Part shown: positions 4,919 to 21,366 of the stretch, one piece after another
Layout: each line of letters starts with the position of its first letter
Numbering within the stretch: the stretch's first letter is position 1
Origin: a virus
Length of the DNA: 21,368 bases
Strand: one strand, 5' to 3'
IMG/VR virus record: IMGVR_UViG_3300003690_000322
Coordinates: 2,142-23,509 of that record
The notes under the pieces: generated by a model
The model's database searches: none
The model's input: only the letters and a program-made list of their open reading frames with translations
Told to the model about the DNA's origin: nothing
Position numbers and translations under genes: made by a program

Positions 4919-5974
4919 TTATCCCGTCTCGTCTATCTTTGCTAATTCAGAATCTCCAACAACAAAGAGTAATTTATTTGTGTCATATTCAACTAATTGT
5001 GCTTTTGTAATATTAGTTGATAAAGCTGTTATGGCATTAAATGAATTATCTCCAATACTTCTATTTTGCCAAGTTACTCCGCTATCAGTAGAACGATACA
5101 ATGTCATTGTCATTCCCATTCTTGGAGTTACACTGGAACCGTATGTATCAAATTTGTATATTGTAAAGTAAATATTTCCATTTGTTGTCTTTAATAGATT
5201 GGAAACAAAGCTTTCTGTAGATGAATGGACAAATGACATACGTACTGTTACTGCGTCTGCTGCAGTATCAACAGTTTGTATAATTACCTCAGTTCCTGAT
5301 AGTGCTACAAATGTAGTGGCACTCGTAGCTATAATTGAACCATCTTCATGCAGACTTGTCATAGTTTCGGACTCCACAACCCAATTAACTCCACCATTTG
5401 TTGTTTTCCATATTGCAGCTCCCTGAACTGCAAAACCTGTTGTTCCATCTAACATATCTATTCCGCTTGTTGTTCCTGTGGGTCCAGCAGCACAAACTGT
5501 CCATGTATCTCCGGCATTTGTTGAATAATAAATACTTCTTGTAGTCATTGAACTATCTCCACAACATACTGCCACGGTTGCTGTTGGAAATGAGCAATCA
5601 AGAATCCTTCCACTTCCGGCAGGACTTGTACTTGAAGCTGACCAAGTATCTCCACTATCCGCTGCTTTAAAGCAACTTAAAGTATTATGGTCAAAACAAA
5701 CTGATTTAGTTTTATCTGCTACACAAACTTTCGCAACTCCAGTCATATCTGCATTATCTGCAGAGGCAGCTGCCCAAGTCACTCCACTATTAGTAGTTCT
5801 TATTGTGGAAGTCCCATTTGTTGCTGACCATGTTGTAGCGCTATGATTTAAAACTCCTTTAATACTACCTGTTGTATAAATTAAATCATTCCAAATTGAA
5901 TTATTAAATCTATTAGCTTCACTTGCGTAAAGTATATCTCCATCTACTTTGGGAAATCCGCCTTCTGCTGCCAT
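4919..5974 (-). CDS. Asp-box (BNR) beta-propeller tail fibre
   Basis: The 351-residue product carries five Asp-box motifs of the S/T-x-D/N-x-G-x-T-W type: about 60 (TTNSGVTW), 104 (AADSGDTW), 151 (STNAGDTW), 191 (TTNGGVNW) and 295 (STDSGVTW). These mark blades of a beta-propeller as in sialidase and sortilin folds. The N terminus (EGGFPKVDGDILYASEANRF) is shared with the tandem paralogue downstream in coordinates, and is probably the module that docks onto the baseplate. Sialidase catalytic residues (the FRIP motif and Arg triad) are not seen, so glycan binding is more likely than cleavage. The ATG follows AAGGAGAA. This copy is intact. Confidence 0.8.
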   Translation of the reverse strand: MAAEGGFPKVDGDILYASEANRFNNSIWNDLIYTTGSIKGVLNHSATTWSATNGTSTIRTTNSGVTWAAASADNADMTGVAKVCVADKTKSVCFDHNTLSCFKAADSGDTWSASSTSPAGSGRILDCSFPTATVAVCCGDSSMTTRSIYYSTNAGDTWTVCAAGPTGTTSGIDMLDGTTGFAVQGAAIWKTTNGGVNWVVESETMTSLHEDGSIIATSATTFVALSGTEVIIQTVDTAADAVTVRMSFVHSSTESFVSNLLKTTNGNIYFTIYKFDTYGSSVTPRMGMTMTLYRSTDSGVTWQNRSIGDNSFNAITALSTNITKAQLVEYDTNKLLFVVGDSELAKIDETG

Positions 5975-6017: not shown

Positions 6018-6539
6018 TTATGTTGCTGTCTCATCGATTACCATGACTTCTCTTTCTGCACCCATCAATATCAATTTATTTGTTCCGATTTCACTTAGTC
6101 CACCCATTGTCCATGCAATTATAGGCGGGTTATTGTCTCCTACGTTTGGAAGTGCACTCGTCTCCCATGTTAATCCTGAATCTTTAGACCTCCAGAGAGT
6201 TGTATTTACTTGAGAAGTTTCATAATTTCCAACAACACAATACAAATTCCCATTAGTTGTTTTAACTAAATTCGTCACAAGCATATTGGAACCTCCCATG
6301 TCACCCTGATATGCCCTTTCAGTGCCTCCGGCTGATGTGGTTCCAGTTTCAATAAAATTAGATTGGTTATTATGAACCATCACATAAGTTGTAGCCGAAA
6401 GTGCAATTAAATAACAATCAAATCTTGTTGGGGTCTGATTGCTGTTCTGACCGGAATCTGTCCAGTTTATCCCTGCATTAGAAGTAGTCCAAATATTTCC
6501 AGCATCATCTACTGCTATCCCTACGGTTGTGCTAAACAT
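6018..6539 (-). CDS. Asp-box fibre paralogue, C-terminal half (separated by frameshift)
   Basis: The 173-residue frame continues the homology of the intact fibre. The region just before its first ATG reads, in the same frame from about 6578, CAAGPT...LDM, matching CAAGPT...IDM of the paralogue. It then has IWTTSNAGINW and WRSKDSGLTWETS Asp-boxes and the shared ending TNKLIL...VIDETA. The ATG at 6539 is therefore an ancestral internal methionine. It overlaps the surroundings of the upstream TGA (TGATATG), so reinitiation after termination is possible. No Shine-Dalgarno site lies before it. It is either a stand-alone product or the untranslated remnant of one gene. Confidence 0.6.
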   Translation of the reverse strand: MFSTTVGIAVDDAGNIWTTSNAGINWTDSGQNSNQTPTRFDCYLIALSATTYVMVHNNQSNFIETGTTSAGGTERAYQGDMGGSNMLVTNLVKTTNGNLYCVVGNYETSQVNTTLWRSKDSGLTWETSALPNVGDNNPPIIAWTMGGLSEIGTNKLILMGAEREVMVIDETAT

Positions 6540-6540
6540 A

Positions 6541-7020
6541 TCAAGCGCACAAACATCTGCTGTGGGTCCTGCCGCACATCGTTGCTGAACCTCTATCTAA
6601 TCCAACCACCGCTACAGATGTAGAAGGCGCACTCACACAAAGTGCATTTGTTGCATTAGCCCACGGAGTAGAAATCTCAGTGTAGCTTTGTCCACTATTT
6701 GTTGAAATTGAAATATTGTTACTATCGTTTCTGCCTACCATTGCATTTGTTCTATCTGAATCTACAATGCACATGGCTCCTGTATTATGAGAGATTGTTC
6801 CGTTTGTCCAAGTCCCACCTGTATTAGAAGTATATGCAACTCCAGTACTTTCATATGCTGACCAGGCAGTTGCCGAATGTCCTAATACTGCTTCGCCATC
6901 TGTAACTGCATCTGCATTAATATGAGAAATAGTATTAAATTTGTTCCCATGATATATATTAGCTTCGCTTGCGTATGCTACATCTCCTGCTGCTTTTGGA
7001 AATACTCCTTCGCCTGCCAT
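6541..7020 (-). CDS. Asp-box fibre paralogue, N-terminal half (frameshifted)
   Basis: The 159-residue product begins MAGEGVFPKAAGDVAYASEAN, aligned with MAAEGGFPKVDGDILYASEAN of the intact neighbour. It has Asp-boxes at about 64 (TSNTGGTW) and 106 (STNSGQSY). After VAVVGLDRGSATM the frame leaves the homology and ends at a TGA at 6541. In the paralogue about 14 residues containing a complete Asp-box (around YYSTNAGDTW) stand at this place, so a deletion whose length is not a multiple of three is the simplest explanation. The ATG has a GGAGAA site. It may still make the docking module plus two blades. Confidence 0.65.
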   Translation of the reverse strand: MAGEGVFPKAAGDVAYASEANIYHGNKFNTISHINADAVTDGEAVLGHSATAWSAYESTGVAYTSNTGGTWTNGTISHNTGAMCIVDSDRTNAMVGRNDSNNISISTNSGQSYTEISTPWANATNALCVSAPSTSVAVVGLDRGSATMCGRTHSRCLCA

Positions 7021-10896: not shown

Positions 10897-11721
10897 TTAA
10901 CTTTGCCTCCTTTTCATATCCATTTGTAATCTTTGACTTATCATCATTGTAAGTTTTCTTAAATCGGCATCTTCTCTTATTACTGGATTATTAATATTAA
11001 TTGTCATTCCTCTTCCTGCTCCAAATGGACCCTCTCCTTTAAATCCTATAATTGTATCTCTTGGGTCTGTTCTGATTATCTGTCCATTAGGTCTCAAAAT
11101 GAAATCGTCTAAATCTGTTGTTGTTGTGGAAGAAGACCTACCTCGATTTCTGAATGGATTAAAAGCTTTTACAAGAGCCACAAGAATTGCTGCAAATGCA
11201 ACAATTATAGCATCGACAATCTTAGGAACAAATGGAAGCAATGCCATAATTATATCTACGAATGCCTGAACTATCGTGTCTAAAAATTCTGGTTTTAGTA
11301 GTTCTTCGGTTATTGCTAAAATTAAATCTACAATTGGTGGAATAAGTTGAGTAACTAAAGGCAAAAGTGCCACTAATACTGTCACCAATGCATCAATAAT
11401 TTTTTGCAGTATTCCTGCTTCAAGTAAAGAGTTAATTACATCTACGAATGCCTGAATGAGAACCATAGCAAAATCTGCCAACTGCAGAATAACTGATACT
11501 AATCCATCTATAAGTGCTGGCAGTATAGTTGGAAGTGCCTCCAATATAATATTAAGAATAGTTGTAAAGAGTTCTATAAACATTGGCAAAACAGTATCTG
11601 CCATTTCAGTAATTAGTACAGCTACTGCTGCTCCAAATCCTCCTTCTTCAAATGCTGCCTGAACTTTTGCTGCTACTGCTTGCATAACTGGAAGTAATTT
11701 TTTGGCAAAATCTGCCAACAT
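10897..11721 (-). CDS. tape measure protein, main part (frame-disrupted)
   Basis: The 274-residue frame is dominated by long hydrophobic helices (about 10-180: VLPMFIELFTTILNIILEAL, PTILPALIDGLVSVILQLAD) and a C-terminal tail with GRGMTININNP and a basic end (RLQMDMKRRQS). This is the hallmark of a tape measure, placed after tail tube and chaperone genes. Upstream of its ATG the same frame reads IPILKPALL, which is typical tape-measure sequence, so the ATG at 11721 is probably not the true start; no ribosome site precedes it. The N-terminal segment is in another frame (11736-11933). Joined, the protein would be about 345 residues, implying a tail of roughly 50 nm by the usual 1.5 angstrom per residue rule. 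Confidence 0.75.
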   Translation of the reverse strand: MLADFAKKLLPVMQAVAAKVQAAFEEGGFGAAVAVLITEMADTVLPMFIELFTTILNIILEALPTILPALIDGLVSVILQLADFAMVLIQAFVDVINSLLEAGILQKIIDALVTVLVALLPLVTQLIPPIVDLILAITEELLKPEFLDTIVQAFVDIIMALLPFVPKIVDAIIVAFAAILVALVKAFNPFRNRGRSSSTTTTDLDDFILRPNGQIIRTDPRDTIIGFKGEGPFGAGRGMTININNPVIREDADLRKLTMMISQRLQMDMKRRQS

Positions 11722-11735
11722 TAACAGTGCTGGTT

Positions 11736-11933
11736 TTAAAATTGGTATTTAAATAGAAGTGCTCCTACTGATGCTGCTATTTTACCAAGTGATACTAAAG
11801 ATTTCTTTCCTGTTGCTCCTCCTGCTCCTGCTCCAGCAAAACCTCCAGCTGCTGCTCCACGAGGAATTATACTTTTTCCTGCTCCTCTTTTGGAATCAAT
11901 AGTTATAGGAACTTCTACCTTAAAATCTGCCAT
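11736..11933 (-). CDS. tape measure protein, N-terminal part (frame-disrupted)
   Basis: The 65-residue frame starts MADFKVEVPITIDSKRGAGK, a short beta-hairpin opening common in phage tape measures, followed by a Gly/Ala-rich linker (AAAGGFAGAGAGGATGKK) and a helix (LVSLGKIAASVGALLFK). After LLFK it ends YQF-stop. Moving one base back at that place (the run TTTAAA, plus-strand 11748-11753) joins it to IPILKPALL of the main part. The ATG lies 23 bases past the stop of the gpT frame and has no Shine-Dalgarno site, as is usual after a frameshifting chaperone gene. Most likely this is one gene with a one-base deletion or a sequence error. Confidence 0.65.
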   Translation of the reverse strand: MADFKVEVPITIDSKRGAGKSIIPRGAAAGGFAGAGAGGATGKKSLVSLGKIAASVGALLFKYQF

Positions 11934-11955: not shown

Positions 11956-12153
11956 TTATTTTCTCATTGCCTCAGCTTCTAATTTCTTAAACTCTTCTTC
12001 GGCTTCTCTAAGAAATATAAGTCGTGAATCAAATTGACTATCTACTTGTTGAGGTGTCCAACCAAAGCTATGTGCGTAATACCAATAAATTAATTCCCTA
12101 TTGGCAAACTCATCATTGGGTCTTAATCCTCTAAGGGCTTCTCTGATACTTCT
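11956..12153 (-). CDS. gpT extension of tail assembly chaperone, made by -1 frameshift
   Basis: In the -1 frame relative to gpG, starting at the last A of a nine-A run, the sequence encodes RSIREALRGLRPNDEFA, then LIYWYYAHSFGWTPQQVD and a charged end EEEFKKLEAEAMRK, 65 residues to TAA at 11956-11958. The pattern of an aromatic helix followed by GWTP..VD is characteristic of gpT-type extensions. There is no start codon suited to independent translation. The fused gpGT product would be about 187 residues. It fills the otherwise empty 189 bases between gpG and the tape measure. In lambda-type phages the G:GT ratio set by such slippage is needed for tail assembly on the tape measure. Confidence 0.85.
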   Translation of the reverse strand, partial: RSIREALRGLRPNDEFANRELIYWYYAHSFGWTPQQVDSQFDSRLIFLREAEEEFKKLEAEAMRK

Positions 12154-12518
12154 TTTTTTTTATCAGTAGTACCTGCAAACTCATTAAGCTCTGCCATCAA
12201 GTAATCGAAAACTACTGTTGGAAGTTTCTTAACTGTTATCAAATCCGTAGGAAATGGTGCAGATTTAATTCCTGCATGAAGAATCCTTGCTTCTAACTCT
12301 GCATCGTTAACATCTATTCTTGGCTGAGTTCCAATTATTTTTACATTAGTACATTCTGAACGAATTTGTCCTCTCTCGCCTGCCGTGATTTTTCTTAAAA
12401 CAACTATCTCTTCTTTACCATTTACCATTAATGGTATCTTGGTTGTTTCTTCTTGGAAATTTCCAGATTCATCTATCTGTAACTTGGGTACTTGCCCTTC
12501 TTTGGTTTTTTCTGTCAT
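12123..12518 (-). CDS. tail assembly chaperone gpG-like
   Basis: The 131-residue product lies between tail tube and tape measure. It has a basic N-terminal arm, a core (TKIPLMVNGKEEIVVLRKIT, then AELEARILHAGIKSAPFP) ending LPTVVFDYLMAELNEFAG, and a short tail DKKKEVSEKPLED. The resemblance to gpG-type chaperones is in position, size and the helical core ending close to a slippery run. GAT AAA AAA AAA GAA provides an A-AAA-AAA/G slip site at 12153-12161. Ribosomes that slip back one base make the gpGT fusion. The ATG has AAGGAGG upstream. Confidence 0.8.
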   Translation of the reverse strand: MTEKTKEGQVPKLQIDESGNFQEETTKIPLMVNGKEEIVVLRKITAGERGQIRSECTNVKIIGTQPRIDVNDAELEARILHAGIKSAPFPTDLITVKKLPTVVFDYLMAELNEFAGTTDKKKEVSEKPLED

Positions 12519-12531
12519 TTTTTATACCTCC

Positions 12532-13530
12532 TTATGATTGTTCAGCTGGTGCTGTTTGAAATGTATTTGTATAGATAACGCTTGTGCATGCTCTTGCCCA
12601 ACCAGTAATATCTTCTTTAACAACTTCTCCTGCATTTTGTGGCAAGGTTTCTTCGTTAAATTTTATTCCTGTCCAGTTGATATCAAGAATATCTCCGTCA
12701 TCATTTGTAAATGTTAATTCAAGTGTAGCGATTTCTGTTCCACTTCCTGGCGTTGGTATAGTTGCTGAACTTGTTCCATTTAAGAAATAAGTAAATAAGT
12801 CCGTACGGTCATTAAATGCTGCTGTCAATTTGAAGTTGTATTCTCTTGTCTTTGCTACGATTGCTTTCGGAAATCTGCTACCAACTTCTGATACTATTTC
12901 TAAGTTATTAACGAACGTTAGCTCTACTGTTTGAACTGCTGCTAATTTTGTTCCATCTGGAATTTCAATACTTCCATGTGCAAAAGTGAAAACCGGATTT
13001 GGCTCTACTACGTTTGAGCTTGCTGAAGTACCTAAAGATTCATATCTATAAGGGCATTCCAAACTGAATTTTACTGGTTCATTTACTGCTGCACTAATTG
13101 TACATTGATTTACTCGACATCCTAATAGAATACTTTGTGCATCTGTAGTGCCTAACTCATAAGCTAATTTTGTTGTAAAGCTTGGTAATACATTAGTTTC
13201 TGTGTATGTATGAGTATAAGCTCCAGAACTTCCAGCATCTGCATTAGCTCCAAGTACACCTAATAACCAATAAGCATTTGATAAAGCTCCATTGATTGTA
13301 ACTGACCCAGAATAAATAGTATTAATTGTTGATGTTGCATTTCTTGCTCCAACTCCATAAATTCTCTCAGCACTATTTTTACGACTTACGCTTATTTCAA
13401 TTCCTTGTCCGAATGCTACATAACTCTCAGTTGATGCTGAGTGTGCTGTTGCTGCTCCGTCCCATTGTGCTGCTTGCTCAAACGCATAAATTGCTACGCT
13501 ATCTCCACCTGATATATAGTTTTGTCCCAA
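12532..13530 (-). CDS. major tail tube protein
   Basis: The 332-residue product is placed immediately before the gpG/gpT chaperone. It shows the tube-protein pattern: N-terminal VAFGQGIEISVSRKNSAERI with a GVGARNA turn, and repeated beta strands (SGSVTINGALSNAYWLLGVL, then a later second half with EIPDGTKLAAVQTVELTF and LFTYFLNG), ending with an added strand-rich tail. The two similar halves fit a tube protein with duplicated barrel topology. Translation must begin at TTG (13530), since no ATG or GTG is nearby and a strong GGAGG lies 9 bases before it. It should polymerise around the tape measure. Confidence 0.75.
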   Translation of the reverse strand: MGQNYISGGDSVAIYAFEQAAQWDGAATAHSASTESYVAFGQGIEISVSRKNSAERIYGVGARNATSTINTIYSGSVTINGALSNAYWLLGVLGANADAGSSGAYTHTYTETNVLPSFTTKLAYELGTTDAQSILLGCRVNQCTISAAVNEPVKFSLECPYRYESLGTSASSNVVEPNPVFTFAHGSIEIPDGTKLAAVQTVELTFVNNLEIVSEVGSRFPKAIVAKTREYNFKLTAAFNDRTDLFTYFLNGTSSATIPTPGSGTEIATLELTFTNDDGDILDINWTGIKFNEETLPQNAGEVVKEDITGWARACTSVIYTNTFQTAPAEQS

Positions 13531-14386: not shown

Positions 14387-14758
14387 TTAATTTTGGTTAT
14401 TTAATACCTCGTTTAATCTTTTCTGAACAATTCCTCTTAATTTGGTATGTAAAGTAGTTCTAATAAATGGATTGGGTCTTGTTCCTGGATGGTTTACTTT
14501 CTTAACAATAATAGTATCTCCTCCTGATTTAAATGCCAGTGCTTTCTTAGTATTAGGTGTAATTGTATGTGGTGGTGTTCCAAATTCAACAAATTTAGCA
14601 TAATCTACAAAATAAAACATTAAACCATTTGAAGTTACCTCTGCAATAATCCTACCTGCCAAATTTCCTGTTTTGAATGGTGCTGCATCGCCAAAGGCAT
14701 TTCTTAAATCTTGTCCTATAGCAAACATAGCTGAATCCAACGCTTGTTGTATGTCCAT
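14387..14758 (-). CDS. HK97 gp10-like neck / tail component
   Basis: The 123-residue product has the family pattern almost complete: KTGNLAGRI near residue 30, then FVDYAKFVEFGTPPH, KKALAFKSGGDTIIVKKVNHPG and RPNPFIRTTL. It ends with a basic helix. This is the HK97_gp10-like family, a head-tail joining or tail completion protein that works with adaptor and closure proteins. It is the first gene after a copy of the TATA-like element. GAGGG lies just upstream of the ATG. This is one of the clearest family matches in the window. Confidence 0.85.
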   Translation of the reverse strand: MDIQQALDSAMFAIGQDLRNAFGDAAPFKTGNLAGRIIAEVTSNGLMFYFVDYAKFVEFGTPPHTITPNTKKALAFKSGGDTIIVKKVNHPGTRPNPFIRTTLHTKLRGIVQKRLNEVLNNQN

Positions 14759-17164: not shown

Positions 17165-18298
17165 TTAAGAGATATTATCGATACCTGAGCAAAATTCTGG
17201 TGCTCTATTGATGATAACTTCATAAATCTTCAACATAAACTTACGGCTATCGTTAGTTTTTGCTAATTCTTCAAAAGTCATATCTTGTAGAACTCTCATT
17301 TCAATATAGTCCATATCCCAGAAGAAAATTTGCTTTGCTCCTGAAACGTTAGACATATACATAGATGGAATTACCGGAATTCTTCCGACTGGTGTTTGTA
17401 GAACCAATTGCGCATTAATACCGAAAGCTATTTCAGTTGCGTTGTCTGCTGGGCTCATTCTGAAAGTATCTATCATGATTTTTCTCAAATCATTCAAAAC
17501 ACTACTCGAACAAGTAGCTAAACTTGGTCGTCCACCATCGTCGAATGCTGCTGTTACTGCTGTATCTACGTCACTCCATACAAGAGCTGATGTAGATTTA
17601 TCTGTAACATTTGTACTTCCTTGTAGTGTAATCAATCCATCGAATTCTGTTCCGTTAGGTCCAGAACCAACTGATGTTGTGTTACTACCTAATAGCATCA
17701 AATTTTCTTCTAATTCTTTCAATGCTCTTGCTGCAAGTAATACTTCTTGTTGTAGTGCGCTACTTGCCGGTGCATTACTGAATGGACTTCCGCCGGTTTG
17801 TGCTCCGCCTGGTTGAAATCCTTCCATCATATAAGCTGGTACTGCTGCTTGTGCTGGGCCTGTAACTCTTCCTACAGAATAAAGATACTTGATTGACTTA
17901 CTGACTCTTTCTCTTGTATGAGAAACGTCTGCCAATGCTGCGTCTTCTGCTGCAGTTGTTGCTGCTCCCTTTGCAGTAACTCTGTTATAATCTGCTGTAA
18001 TACCTTGGTTTGCGACTCTTGGAATTAACTCTGTCAATGGTGTGTATTTCCTTGACACGTCTACAATTCTGCTATCTACATAGACAGGAATCATAGCGTA
18101 ACCAGCTGTTCCAGCTCCGCCTGTTGTGGTTGCAAAAGATTTTAATCCAGCTGTGAATTTAGATTTAAGTTCACTTCTGTTATCAAATCCTCTATAACCA
18201 CCTGCGTAAACTGTTCCGTCTGGCAAGTTTCCAAATGATTGCGCATACAATGCTTTAGTATCGATGCTTCCACCGAAACTTGATGTAACTGCTGTCAT
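17165..18298 (-). CDS. major capsid protein, HK97 fold
   Basis: The 377-residue product follows directly on the prohead protease/scaffold gene (TAATG overlap), the normal place of the major capsid protein. It has an N-terminal segment (about 1-60), an E-loop/P-domain-like region with VDSRIVDVSRKYTPLTELIP, a long helix (LQQEVLLAARALKELEENLML), an A-domain with GLITLQGSTN and LNDLRKIMIDTF, and a terminal stretch (YIEMRVLQDMTFEELAKT). Residues QTPVGRIPVIPS and FFWDMDYIEMR resemble capsid proteins of tailed archaeal and marine viruses. Codon and residue choice (Ala, Thr, Ser-rich, few Lys) fit a highly expressed virion protein. Confidence 0.85.
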   Translation of the reverse strand: MTAVTSSFGGSIDTKALYAQSFGNLPDGTVYAGGYRGFDNRSELKSKFTAGLKSFATTTGGAGTAGYAMIPVYVDSRIVDVSRKYTPLTELIPRVANQGITADYNRVTAKGAATTAAEDAALADVSHTRERVSKSIKYLYSVGRVTGPAQAAVPAYMMEGFQPGGAQTGGSPFSNAPASSALQQEVLLAARALKELEENLMLLGSNTTSVGSGPNGTEFDGLITLQGSTNVTDKSTSALVWSDVDTAVTAAFDDGGRPSLATCSSSVLNDLRKIMIDTFRMSPADNATEIAFGINAQLVLQTPVGRIPVIPSMYMSNVSGAKQIFFWDMDYIEMRVLQDMTFEELAKTNDSRKFMLKIYEVIINRAPEFCSGIDNIS

Positions 18299-20024: not shown

Positions 20025-20710
20025 TTAGTTCCTAAAATCTCCTTTTTAATTTGAGTATTAAGGACACTTGTATATTGTTCATTAAATACTATATTTTCTC
20101 TTACTTCGCTACTGCTGAATTCTTTACCAAAATATGCTATCCCAGAAGTCCATTTGTCATTTAGTTGCTGTGTAGGGTCAAAGTATTTTCCATTAATCTT
20201 ATTCCAAGCATGTGGAAATGGCATTGGGAAACCTTTAAAAATATAAACTCCTTCTACATAAGTTATATTAGGATTTCTTTGTGAAAGAATTTGAGCATTT
20301 TTAAAACACTCTTTCATCTTTGGGAAATCATCACCATAACTCGCTATAACTTGTTTCTTTTCTTGTTCATTTAATTGTCCGATTTTCATTTCTTTAGTTC
20401 TTTTCTGCATCATCTTCCATTGTCTTTTTTGTGGTTGAGGGAGAAATTCTATCATATTTTTCCAAGCGTCTTTTGGTTCGAATTGCTTTTCTGGGTCCTT
20501 ACTTGAACTTCCAGTAGGTCCGTAGTAATGATATCTATAATTACCAGGACTTCCTATTCGTTTTATGTATTTATGTTTAACTTCTTGAGATGGCTCTCCA
20601 ATTAGTTCTTCAATCTCATCAAGTTCCTTATCAGATACATCTAAATCCCAATCGTCAGACCTTTCTTTCCAAGACATTTTCGTTAATTCCTTATCTATAT
20701 ATTGTCCCAA
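20021..20710 (-). CDS. protein with Cys-His-Asp transglutaminase/papain-like domain
   Basis: The 229-residue product has an acidic first part (about 1-40), a segment HKYIKRIGSPGNYRYHYYGP (46-65) like the R....Y.Y linkers of virion-associated proteins, and a C-terminal domain with ECFKNAQIL (Cys135), FPHAWNKING (His167) and KYFDPTQQL (Asp178). The order C...HAW..i.G...DPT is typical of transglutaminase-like or papain-like folds, including small phage members. Spacing is compatible with a catalytic triad. It starts at TTG behind GGGAGG and overlaps the kinase gene by 16 bases. It could be an ejected peptidase or amidotransferase-like enzyme, or a non-catalytic relative. Confidence 0.6.
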   Translation of the reverse strand: MGQYIDKELTKMSWKERSDDWDLDVSDKELDEIEELIGEPSQEVKHKYIKRIGSPGNYRYHYYGPTGSSSKDPEKQFEPKDAWKNMIEFLPQPQKRQWKMMQKRTKEMKIGQLNEQEKKQVIASYGDDFPKMKECFKNAQILSQRNPNITYVEGVYIFKGFPMPFPHAWNKINGKYFDPTQQLNDKWTSGIAYFGKEFSSSEVRENIVFNEQYTSVLNTQIKKEILGTK

Positions 20711-21366
20711 TTTATATCCTCCCTATTAGTTTTAATAGTTTTTAGATTATTAAAATCTTTCTTTAAACCTAAAACTGTATTCCTAACTGCCGGTCCGGCT
20801 TCGGCAATCATTTCATAATGGACATACCTTCCCTTTTCTTTAAATCTTTCAGCTGCGTTATAAATTGCTACTGGTACAGGGGTGTCTATATATATACATT
20901 TTGTAGTATATCCCATATCTTTAAAGGTTTTAACCTTTTTTAAAGAACTTGTAGCATTGGATAGTGTCCCATCAAAAATTACATTTGCATTTCGACGAAT
21001 TGCTAAAGCCATAATTTTTTTAGAAAGAGTGCTGCTTTCCTCATGGACTAACGATGCTCCATCCCCACCTTTATATTCCGGTATCATCTCTTTTATATCA
21101 TCGGCATTTATAATTACGAAAATTTTATTAGTTTGTAAGCTTCTGGCAGATTTCCCATCTTCTGAATATTTAAAAATTTTTTGAGTATTGTAAGTTTTAC
21201 CTGCTCCTGGAATTCCTGCCATAAAAACAACTTCAGGGGTTTTCTTGTCTTTTACGATTGCCTTATTTATTGCTTTGGAATAAAGTTTATAAATTGGTTT
21301 ATGAACTTCTTTCTTTCTCTTATCTGTAAATTCGCCATTCTTATCGGTGTTTAAACCAAGTGTGTC
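20695..21366 (-). CDS. zeta-toxin-like P-loop kinase (N terminus cut by window edge)
   Basis: About 223 residues are visible; the frame is open to the right edge, so the ATG at 21222 is internal. The upstream residues (GLNTDKNGEFTDKRKKEVHK) are the lead-in usual for phage zeta domains. Then come Walker A GIPGAGKT, ADDIKEMIPEY, HEESSTLSKKIMALAIRR, VIFDGTLSN and RYVHYEMI, matching the zeta order Walker A, D-D-x-x, H-E-x-S, D-G-T, R. Zeta toxins phosphorylate UDP-GlcNAc or related sugars. Here the gene heads the virion operon next to portal/head genes, so it may be a virion-associated enzyme rather than a toxin-antitoxin half. Confidence 0.75.
   Translation of the reverse strand, partial: DTLGLNTDKNGEFTDKRKKEVHKPIYKLYSKAINKAIVKDKKTPEVVFMAGIPGAGKTYNTQKIFKYSEDGKSARSLQTNKIFVIINADDIKEMIPEYKGGDGASLVHEESSTLSKKIMALAIRRNANVIFDGTLSNATSSLKKVKTFKDMGYTTKCIYIDTPVPVAIYNAAERFKEKGRYVHYEMIAEAGPAVRNTVLGLKKDFNNLKTIKTNREDINWDNI

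Follow-up and report, generated by a model that had tools for sequence, protein, structure and literature searches.

In phage lambda, the tail assembly chaperones gpG and gpGT are related by a -1 frameshift, for which the slip heptamer is G_GGA_AAG. Frameshifting of this type is general in the long-tailed dsDNA phages (for review see PMC5009743). The lambda genes and their long-tailed phage counterparts share the order tail tube, G, T and tape measure, a T confined to the -1 frame close to the 3' end of G, and a heptamer at the end of G (PMC5009743). For archaea and their viruses, sequence-based inferences of -1 frameshifting are limited to a few cases, and the G/GT type has been inferred for the haloarchaeal tailed viruses HVTV-1, HCTV-1, HCTV-2 and HCTV-5 (PMC5009743). 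In addition, HCTV-16 is annotated with a "putative programmed translational -1 frameshift" next to its tail tube gene. An A-rich -1 slip that is kept by selection is also known from the archaeal magnesium-chelatase genes of Methanocaldococcus and Methanococcus, which use A_AAA_AAR sites (PMC5009743). Here, the gene is cellular and the proteins are unrelated to G and T.

The locus described here is a new example of this known mechanism, -1 G/GT frameshifting, with an A-run as the slip site, and introduces no new principle. It lies in the window, that is, the whole stretch of DNA analysed, which covers 21.4 kb out of the 23.5 kb of an IMG/VR virus record. The virion genes of the window are all read from the minus strand, and tube, G, T and tape measure follow one another on that strand, with G directly between the tail tube and tape-measure genes. 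The features are as follows:

17165-18298, minus strand: SU10-like major capsid protein
14387-14758, minus strand: HK97-gp10-like protein, weak by Pfam, with a clear neck/tail-completion match in PHROGs
12532-13530, minus strand: tail tube protein gene, upstream neighbour of G (Phage_tube_2, E 3.2e-23)
12518-12123, minus strand: G, candidate tail assembly chaperone ORF, 131 aa, start ATG at 12518, stop TAA at 12125-12123
12161-12153, minus strand: A9 slip site, register GAT AAA AAA AAA GAA
12159-12153, minus strand: slip heptamer A_AAA_AAA within the A9, in the register of G
11956-12153, minus strand: T, the -1 frame extension, 65 codons plus a stop at 11958-11956
11956-12518, minus strand: GT, predicted frameshift fusion, 187 aa (122 codons of G and 65 of T)
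10897-11933, minus strand: tape-measure gene, downstream neighbour of T (PHROG tape-measure matches)

The window shares the three features of the lambda system given above and differs from it in having A_AAA_AAA as the heptamer, a G of the XkdN/TAC_5 type and a T that lacks detectable similarity to gpT. The comparison with HCTV-16 is similar. Its tail tube is 31% identical to that of the window, whereas its heptamer, in register, is G_GGA_AAC and its G and T have no significant similarity to the G and T of the window. The group of viruses with the A-run also differs from the haloarchaeal viruses in being AT-rich and mostly from metagenomes.

Positions 12153-12161 are precisely nine T on the plus strand and A9 on the coding strand, and the 3' end of G reads ACT GAT AAA AAA AAA GAA GTA TCA GAG AAG CCC TTA GAG GAT TAA, with the 0-frame stop coming 27 nt past the run. 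At the other end of the gene, the ATG is preceded by a strong Shine-Dalgarno sequence, AAGGAGG. In the -1 frame, a TAA directly before the A run closes the frame, after which 65 codons are open (RSIREALRG...EAMRK). The first ATG, GTG or TTG of this ORF is an ATG that leaves only 3 codons and, as a result, a fusion to G is the only form in which T of the window can be produced. The ORF of the tape measure starts at 11933, downstream of the stop of T. These findings agree with an earlier note on this DNA, which had described a nine-A site in GAT AAA AAA AAA GAA, a G ending soon after it, and a -1 frame that is open for 65 codons and fills the gap to the tape measure with no start of its own. It gave the site in plus-strand coordinates, whereas the genes are on the minus strand.

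Several other features of the record and its relatives were observed in passing. The tape-measure gene of the window is broken into two frames (11933-11736 and 11721-10897) and in nearly all relatives it is one intact ORF of about 311-417 aa. As there is no evident slip heptamer at the break, an indel or a mistake in assembly seems the likelier cause than a second programmed frameshift. The usual rule for tail length is 1.5 Angstrom per tape-measure residue, and the tape measures of this virus group imply a short tail of roughly 50-60 nm. A fibre-like gene at 6018-7020 (minus strand), a paralogue of 4919-5974, is also frame-broken near 6580-6605. A zeta-toxin-type kinase domain (PF06414, E 7.9e-25) is encoded at 20695-21222 (minus strand), followed by a 229-aa ORF that has no family match. 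In two relatives (L004 and L006), an ORF resembling HNH homing endonucleases sits between T and the tape-measure gene, and similar HNH-like ORFs are found at other places in L129 and L130. Finally, many relatives, for example L005, L009, L012 and L019, have a small MNEKELKELKEINKTLSSIRTFIIA-like ORF of 58-97 aa after the tape measure, which overlaps the next gene.

The G protein matches known tail assembly chaperones, weakly by sequence and, as modelled, clearly by fold. Here, the window protein on its own is below threshold, with an E of 1.9e-4 and 21.8 bits over residues 26-86 against PF08890 (Phage_TAC_5, XkdN-like), whose curated cut-off of 27 bits is not reached. Consequently, G is called XkdN-like in fold and is not filed in PF08890. 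The family as a whole does better: 30 of the 41 G family members match PF08890 at E<=0.1 (best 1.6e-8), and 25 of the 41 match the XkdN-like family of PHROG. For structural comparison, G and T were modelled separately, each as the translation of its own frame. The AlphaFold2 model of G has a pLDDT of 83, and its best PDB match is YqbN of B. subtilis (3klu) which, with an E of 0.014, is nonetheless far ahead of the rest. A search of solved structures with the sequence profile of G gave no match, YqbN being found by fold comparison only. Among the best viral fold matches are annotated tail assembly chaperones of Bacillus phages, FS-gp41 of Mu and that of the haloarchaeal HHTV-2. Thus, the window G domain shares with the XkdN-YqbN family its predicted fold and a weak sequence match, and differs from it in scoring under the Pfam cut-off.

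The T protein is gpT-like by position and architecture only, for it has no detectable similarity to lambda gpT or to T of HCTV-16 when each is compared by hhalign. T domains are known to diverge, and the lack of a match is compatible with T belonging among them. The model of T is confident and all-helical, with a four-helix domain (pLDDT 95). A search for family matches with T of the window found none, and four members of the T family weakly match phrog_9001, a tail assembly chaperone (best E 0.0098). The best viral structural match is A0A1S5Y388, a 72-aa protein of an "uncultured archaeal virus" (E 0.023, probability 1.00). Its accession is close to that of A0A1S5Y368, a match of G, and the two may be halves of one G/T gene. 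The earlier note had called the -1 sequence gpT-like, and this holds for its canonical position, its architecture and its being a conserved domain, but not for its sequence. The larger claim of that note, a programmed -1 frameshift that makes gpG and gpGT, draws its support from the architecture, the conservation and the G domain, and not from homology to gpT.

To assess conservation, relatives were fetched through the tail tube, as none had come to light when GT itself was the query. The tube search produced 57 loci in viral contigs with tube identities of 42-72%, except for one poor match (L059), which was left out as unrelated, and one contig of a Woesearchaeota MAG (see below). The relatives counted are the 52 with enough sequence downstream of the tube and, together with the window, they represent 42 distinct G-T sequences at 90% nucleotide identity. 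The nearest relative is 58% identical to the window over G-T. In all 52 relatives and in the window, G ends at a run of A7, A9 or A10 with A_AAA_AAA in the register of G, and in all 52 a -1 ORF of 61-77 codons stands behind the slip site. A wider scan added 12 further loci of the same type, with A9-A11. The slip site and open frame, which the earlier note would have expected to be lost in close relatives were its proposal wrong, are thus kept throughout. Matches outside this set were absent when G and T of the relatives were compared with cultured phages by tblastn.

This conservation bears directly on whether the frameshift is an artefact, an indel made by sequencing or assembly in the A run of a G-T ORF that is truly continuous. 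The run is a homopolymer and the same record carries the frame-broken tape-measure and fibre-like genes; with these two other breaks, the window by itself would not suffice to dismiss such an error. However, the relatives come from many metagenomes and have varied run lengths and flanking codons, all 52 show the same -1 arrangement, and a continuous G-T ORF occurs in none of them. The conserved arrangement excludes an indel as the general explanation, and we regard one as scarcely credible at this locus.

The sequence comparisons further indicate selection on the G/T arrangement, of the purifying kind for T as read in the -1 frame. Past the stop of G, the T frame is free of stops in 42 of 42 loci, whereas the other two frames average 6.1 stops (+1) and 4.6 stops (0). 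T is never found in the +1 frame, and a +1 placement was rejected on its average of 6.1 stops. Between relatives, the pN/pS of T in the -1 frame is 0.26, and changes concentrate at the third codon position of that frame (1276/874/2465 for the first, second and third positions). Elsewhere in these genomes, the in-frame A_AAA_AAA is found 52 times in 118,788 codons, or about once per 2,300 codons, as against about 107 in synonymous shuffles, which include the slip genes.

As T is under purifying selection, it is translated. The possibility that re-initiation or internal initiation yields T as a separate product gains something from the 20 of 42 loci in which an ATG, GTG or TTG leaves at least 50 codons of the -1 ORF, although many of these early starts are a TTG formed by the stop region of G (GATTGA). 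The other 22 loci have no early start, the window has none until 3 codons from the end, and the few start contexts that were inspected have no obvious ribosome-binding site. Moreover, if T were translated separately, the in-frame slip heptamer would have no reason for being kept. Separate translation of T, or a T that is never translated, is therefore very improbable.

Programmed -1 ribosomal frameshifting is instead, with high probability, the best explanation for G and GT at the window locus. The model that follows predicts the slip, its efficiency and the functions of the products. One start would yield two tail assembly chaperones. Most ribosomes would translate G (131 aa) and terminate 27 nt past the A run. 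A minority would slip one base back on A_AAA_AAA while their P and A sites each carry a tRNA-Lys paired with AAA; the tRNAs would re-pair on AAA AAA, and reading in the -1 frame through T would give GT (187 aa). If lambda is a guide, the tape-measure protein would be coated by G and by the G portion of GT, T would serve to bring in the subunits of the tail tube, and neither G nor GT would be present in the finished virion.

No RNA stimulator of the frameshift, either a stable downstream stem-loop or an upstream Shine-Dalgarno-like sequence, was detected here. Folding of the downstream RNA in the 42 loci, considering nested structures only, was no stronger than in control stretches (mean z of -0.30 versus -0.17), and with the same restriction the window, at a z of -0.30, has no stimulatory structure. 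An upstream GGAGG within 20 nt of the slip site is absent from 42 of 42 loci, and Rfam gave weak, chance-level matches only and no frameshift-element family. As neither downstream structure nor upstream GGAGG was found, it appears that the heptamer by itself is enough for slippage at these sites, perhaps helped by the stop codon close by.

Variation of the slip site is seen both within and beyond the group. Within it, the run is no longer than A7 in five distinct relatives, where its register is unchanged (TCA AAA AAA GAT and similar). Beyond it, a distant virus group whose tubes are 30-32% identical (loci L117-L124, L137, L140, L142, L146 and L148; six distinct sequences) has as its candidate slip site U_UUU_UUA, which stands in register where the -1 ORF begins (AAT TTT TTA). 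In this distant group, the 0-frame tail of G that overlaps T is much longer, and T, again in the -1 frame, has the same iYxFxA.kFGWT signature as the present T; the two T profiles match by hhalign with a P of 7e-5 and a probability of 63%. Among the distant loci, L147 has a -1 ORF resembling T but none of the listed heptamers at its boundary. Two single cases, in genomes of the phylum of a Woesearchaeota MAG (see below), have A_AAU_UUU (L159) and A_AAA_AAA (L160) at a G/T-like overlap, each standing alone with no conservation behind it. Across these loci, the heptamer changes and the -1 relation stays.

These variants help to separate slippage by the ribosome from slippage by RNA polymerase. 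In the latter, the polymerase would add or drop an A on the A9 and ordinary translation of the altered mRNA would yield GT. Most loci have A9-A10, and runs of this length are classic sites of transcriptional slippage. In many bacterial genomes, nine A is the length where selection against polymerase slippage is evident, and such runs are used for slippage by Thermus dnaX and by IS elements (PMC1088944). In opposition to this, the A7 relatives, which fall under this nine-A length, and the group with six T followed by A (T_TTT_TTA) have runs that are short for a polymerase and suit tandem tRNA slippage. Furthermore, no shift other than -1 is seen, and although the run length varies (7, 9 or 10), the heptamer keeps a constant codon register. 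The A7 relatives and the U_UUU_UUA of the distant group are the reason why the ribosome is favoured. Ribosomal slippage is better supported than transcriptional slippage, short of proof, and the polymerase is an unlikely source of GT.

The host of the virus is probably archaeal. The indications are indirect: an MCM helicase, present in a distant-group member of 64 kb, an Hjc-type resolvase that scores above the cut-off in a close-group member of 40 kb (the control search matched three archaea and Thermotoga), matches of the window tube to the tubes of Haloarcula viruses, and a contig of a Woesearchaeota MAG. This contig (L060, JAIPIC010000016.1) was the only match when 84,980 species genomes were scanned with the tail tube. 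It has a related tube and related G and T genes with the slip site AGT AAA AAA AAA GAC TGA, and could be a provirus or a free virus that was binned with the MAG. When window DNA was searched for in 371 genomes, all from the phylum of this MAG, the part across the capsid gene matched contigs in two more of them. The same search also gave a large number of matches that were short and weak, most of them to a small set of repeat-prone stretches, and no CRISPR spacer that was convincing. A DPANN host is a reasonable guess.

For annotation, the practical consequence is that T will escape automatic gene callers in every one of these genomes and should be annotated as a fusion. The interest for specialists comes from how large the conserved set is and from the slip-site variants that occur naturally. 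A7, A9, A10 and U6A form a ready test series for ribosomal versus polymerase slippage. More broadly, G/GT frameshifting in probable archaeal viruses gains an example that is well supported and very widely conserved. A tentative extension, to which we give a little less than an even chance, is that a large, mostly uncultured group of archaeal tailed viruses, possibly with DPANN/Woesearchaeota hosts, depends on -1 ribosomal frameshifting that has no recognisable stimulator, and that related lineages have swapped heptamers (A_AAA_AAA, U_UUU_UUA and possibly A_AAU_UUU) while keeping T and the -1 frame. If this is true, such frameshifting in viruses with DPANN hosts would be evidence that DPANN ribosomes carry out programmed -1 frameshifting.
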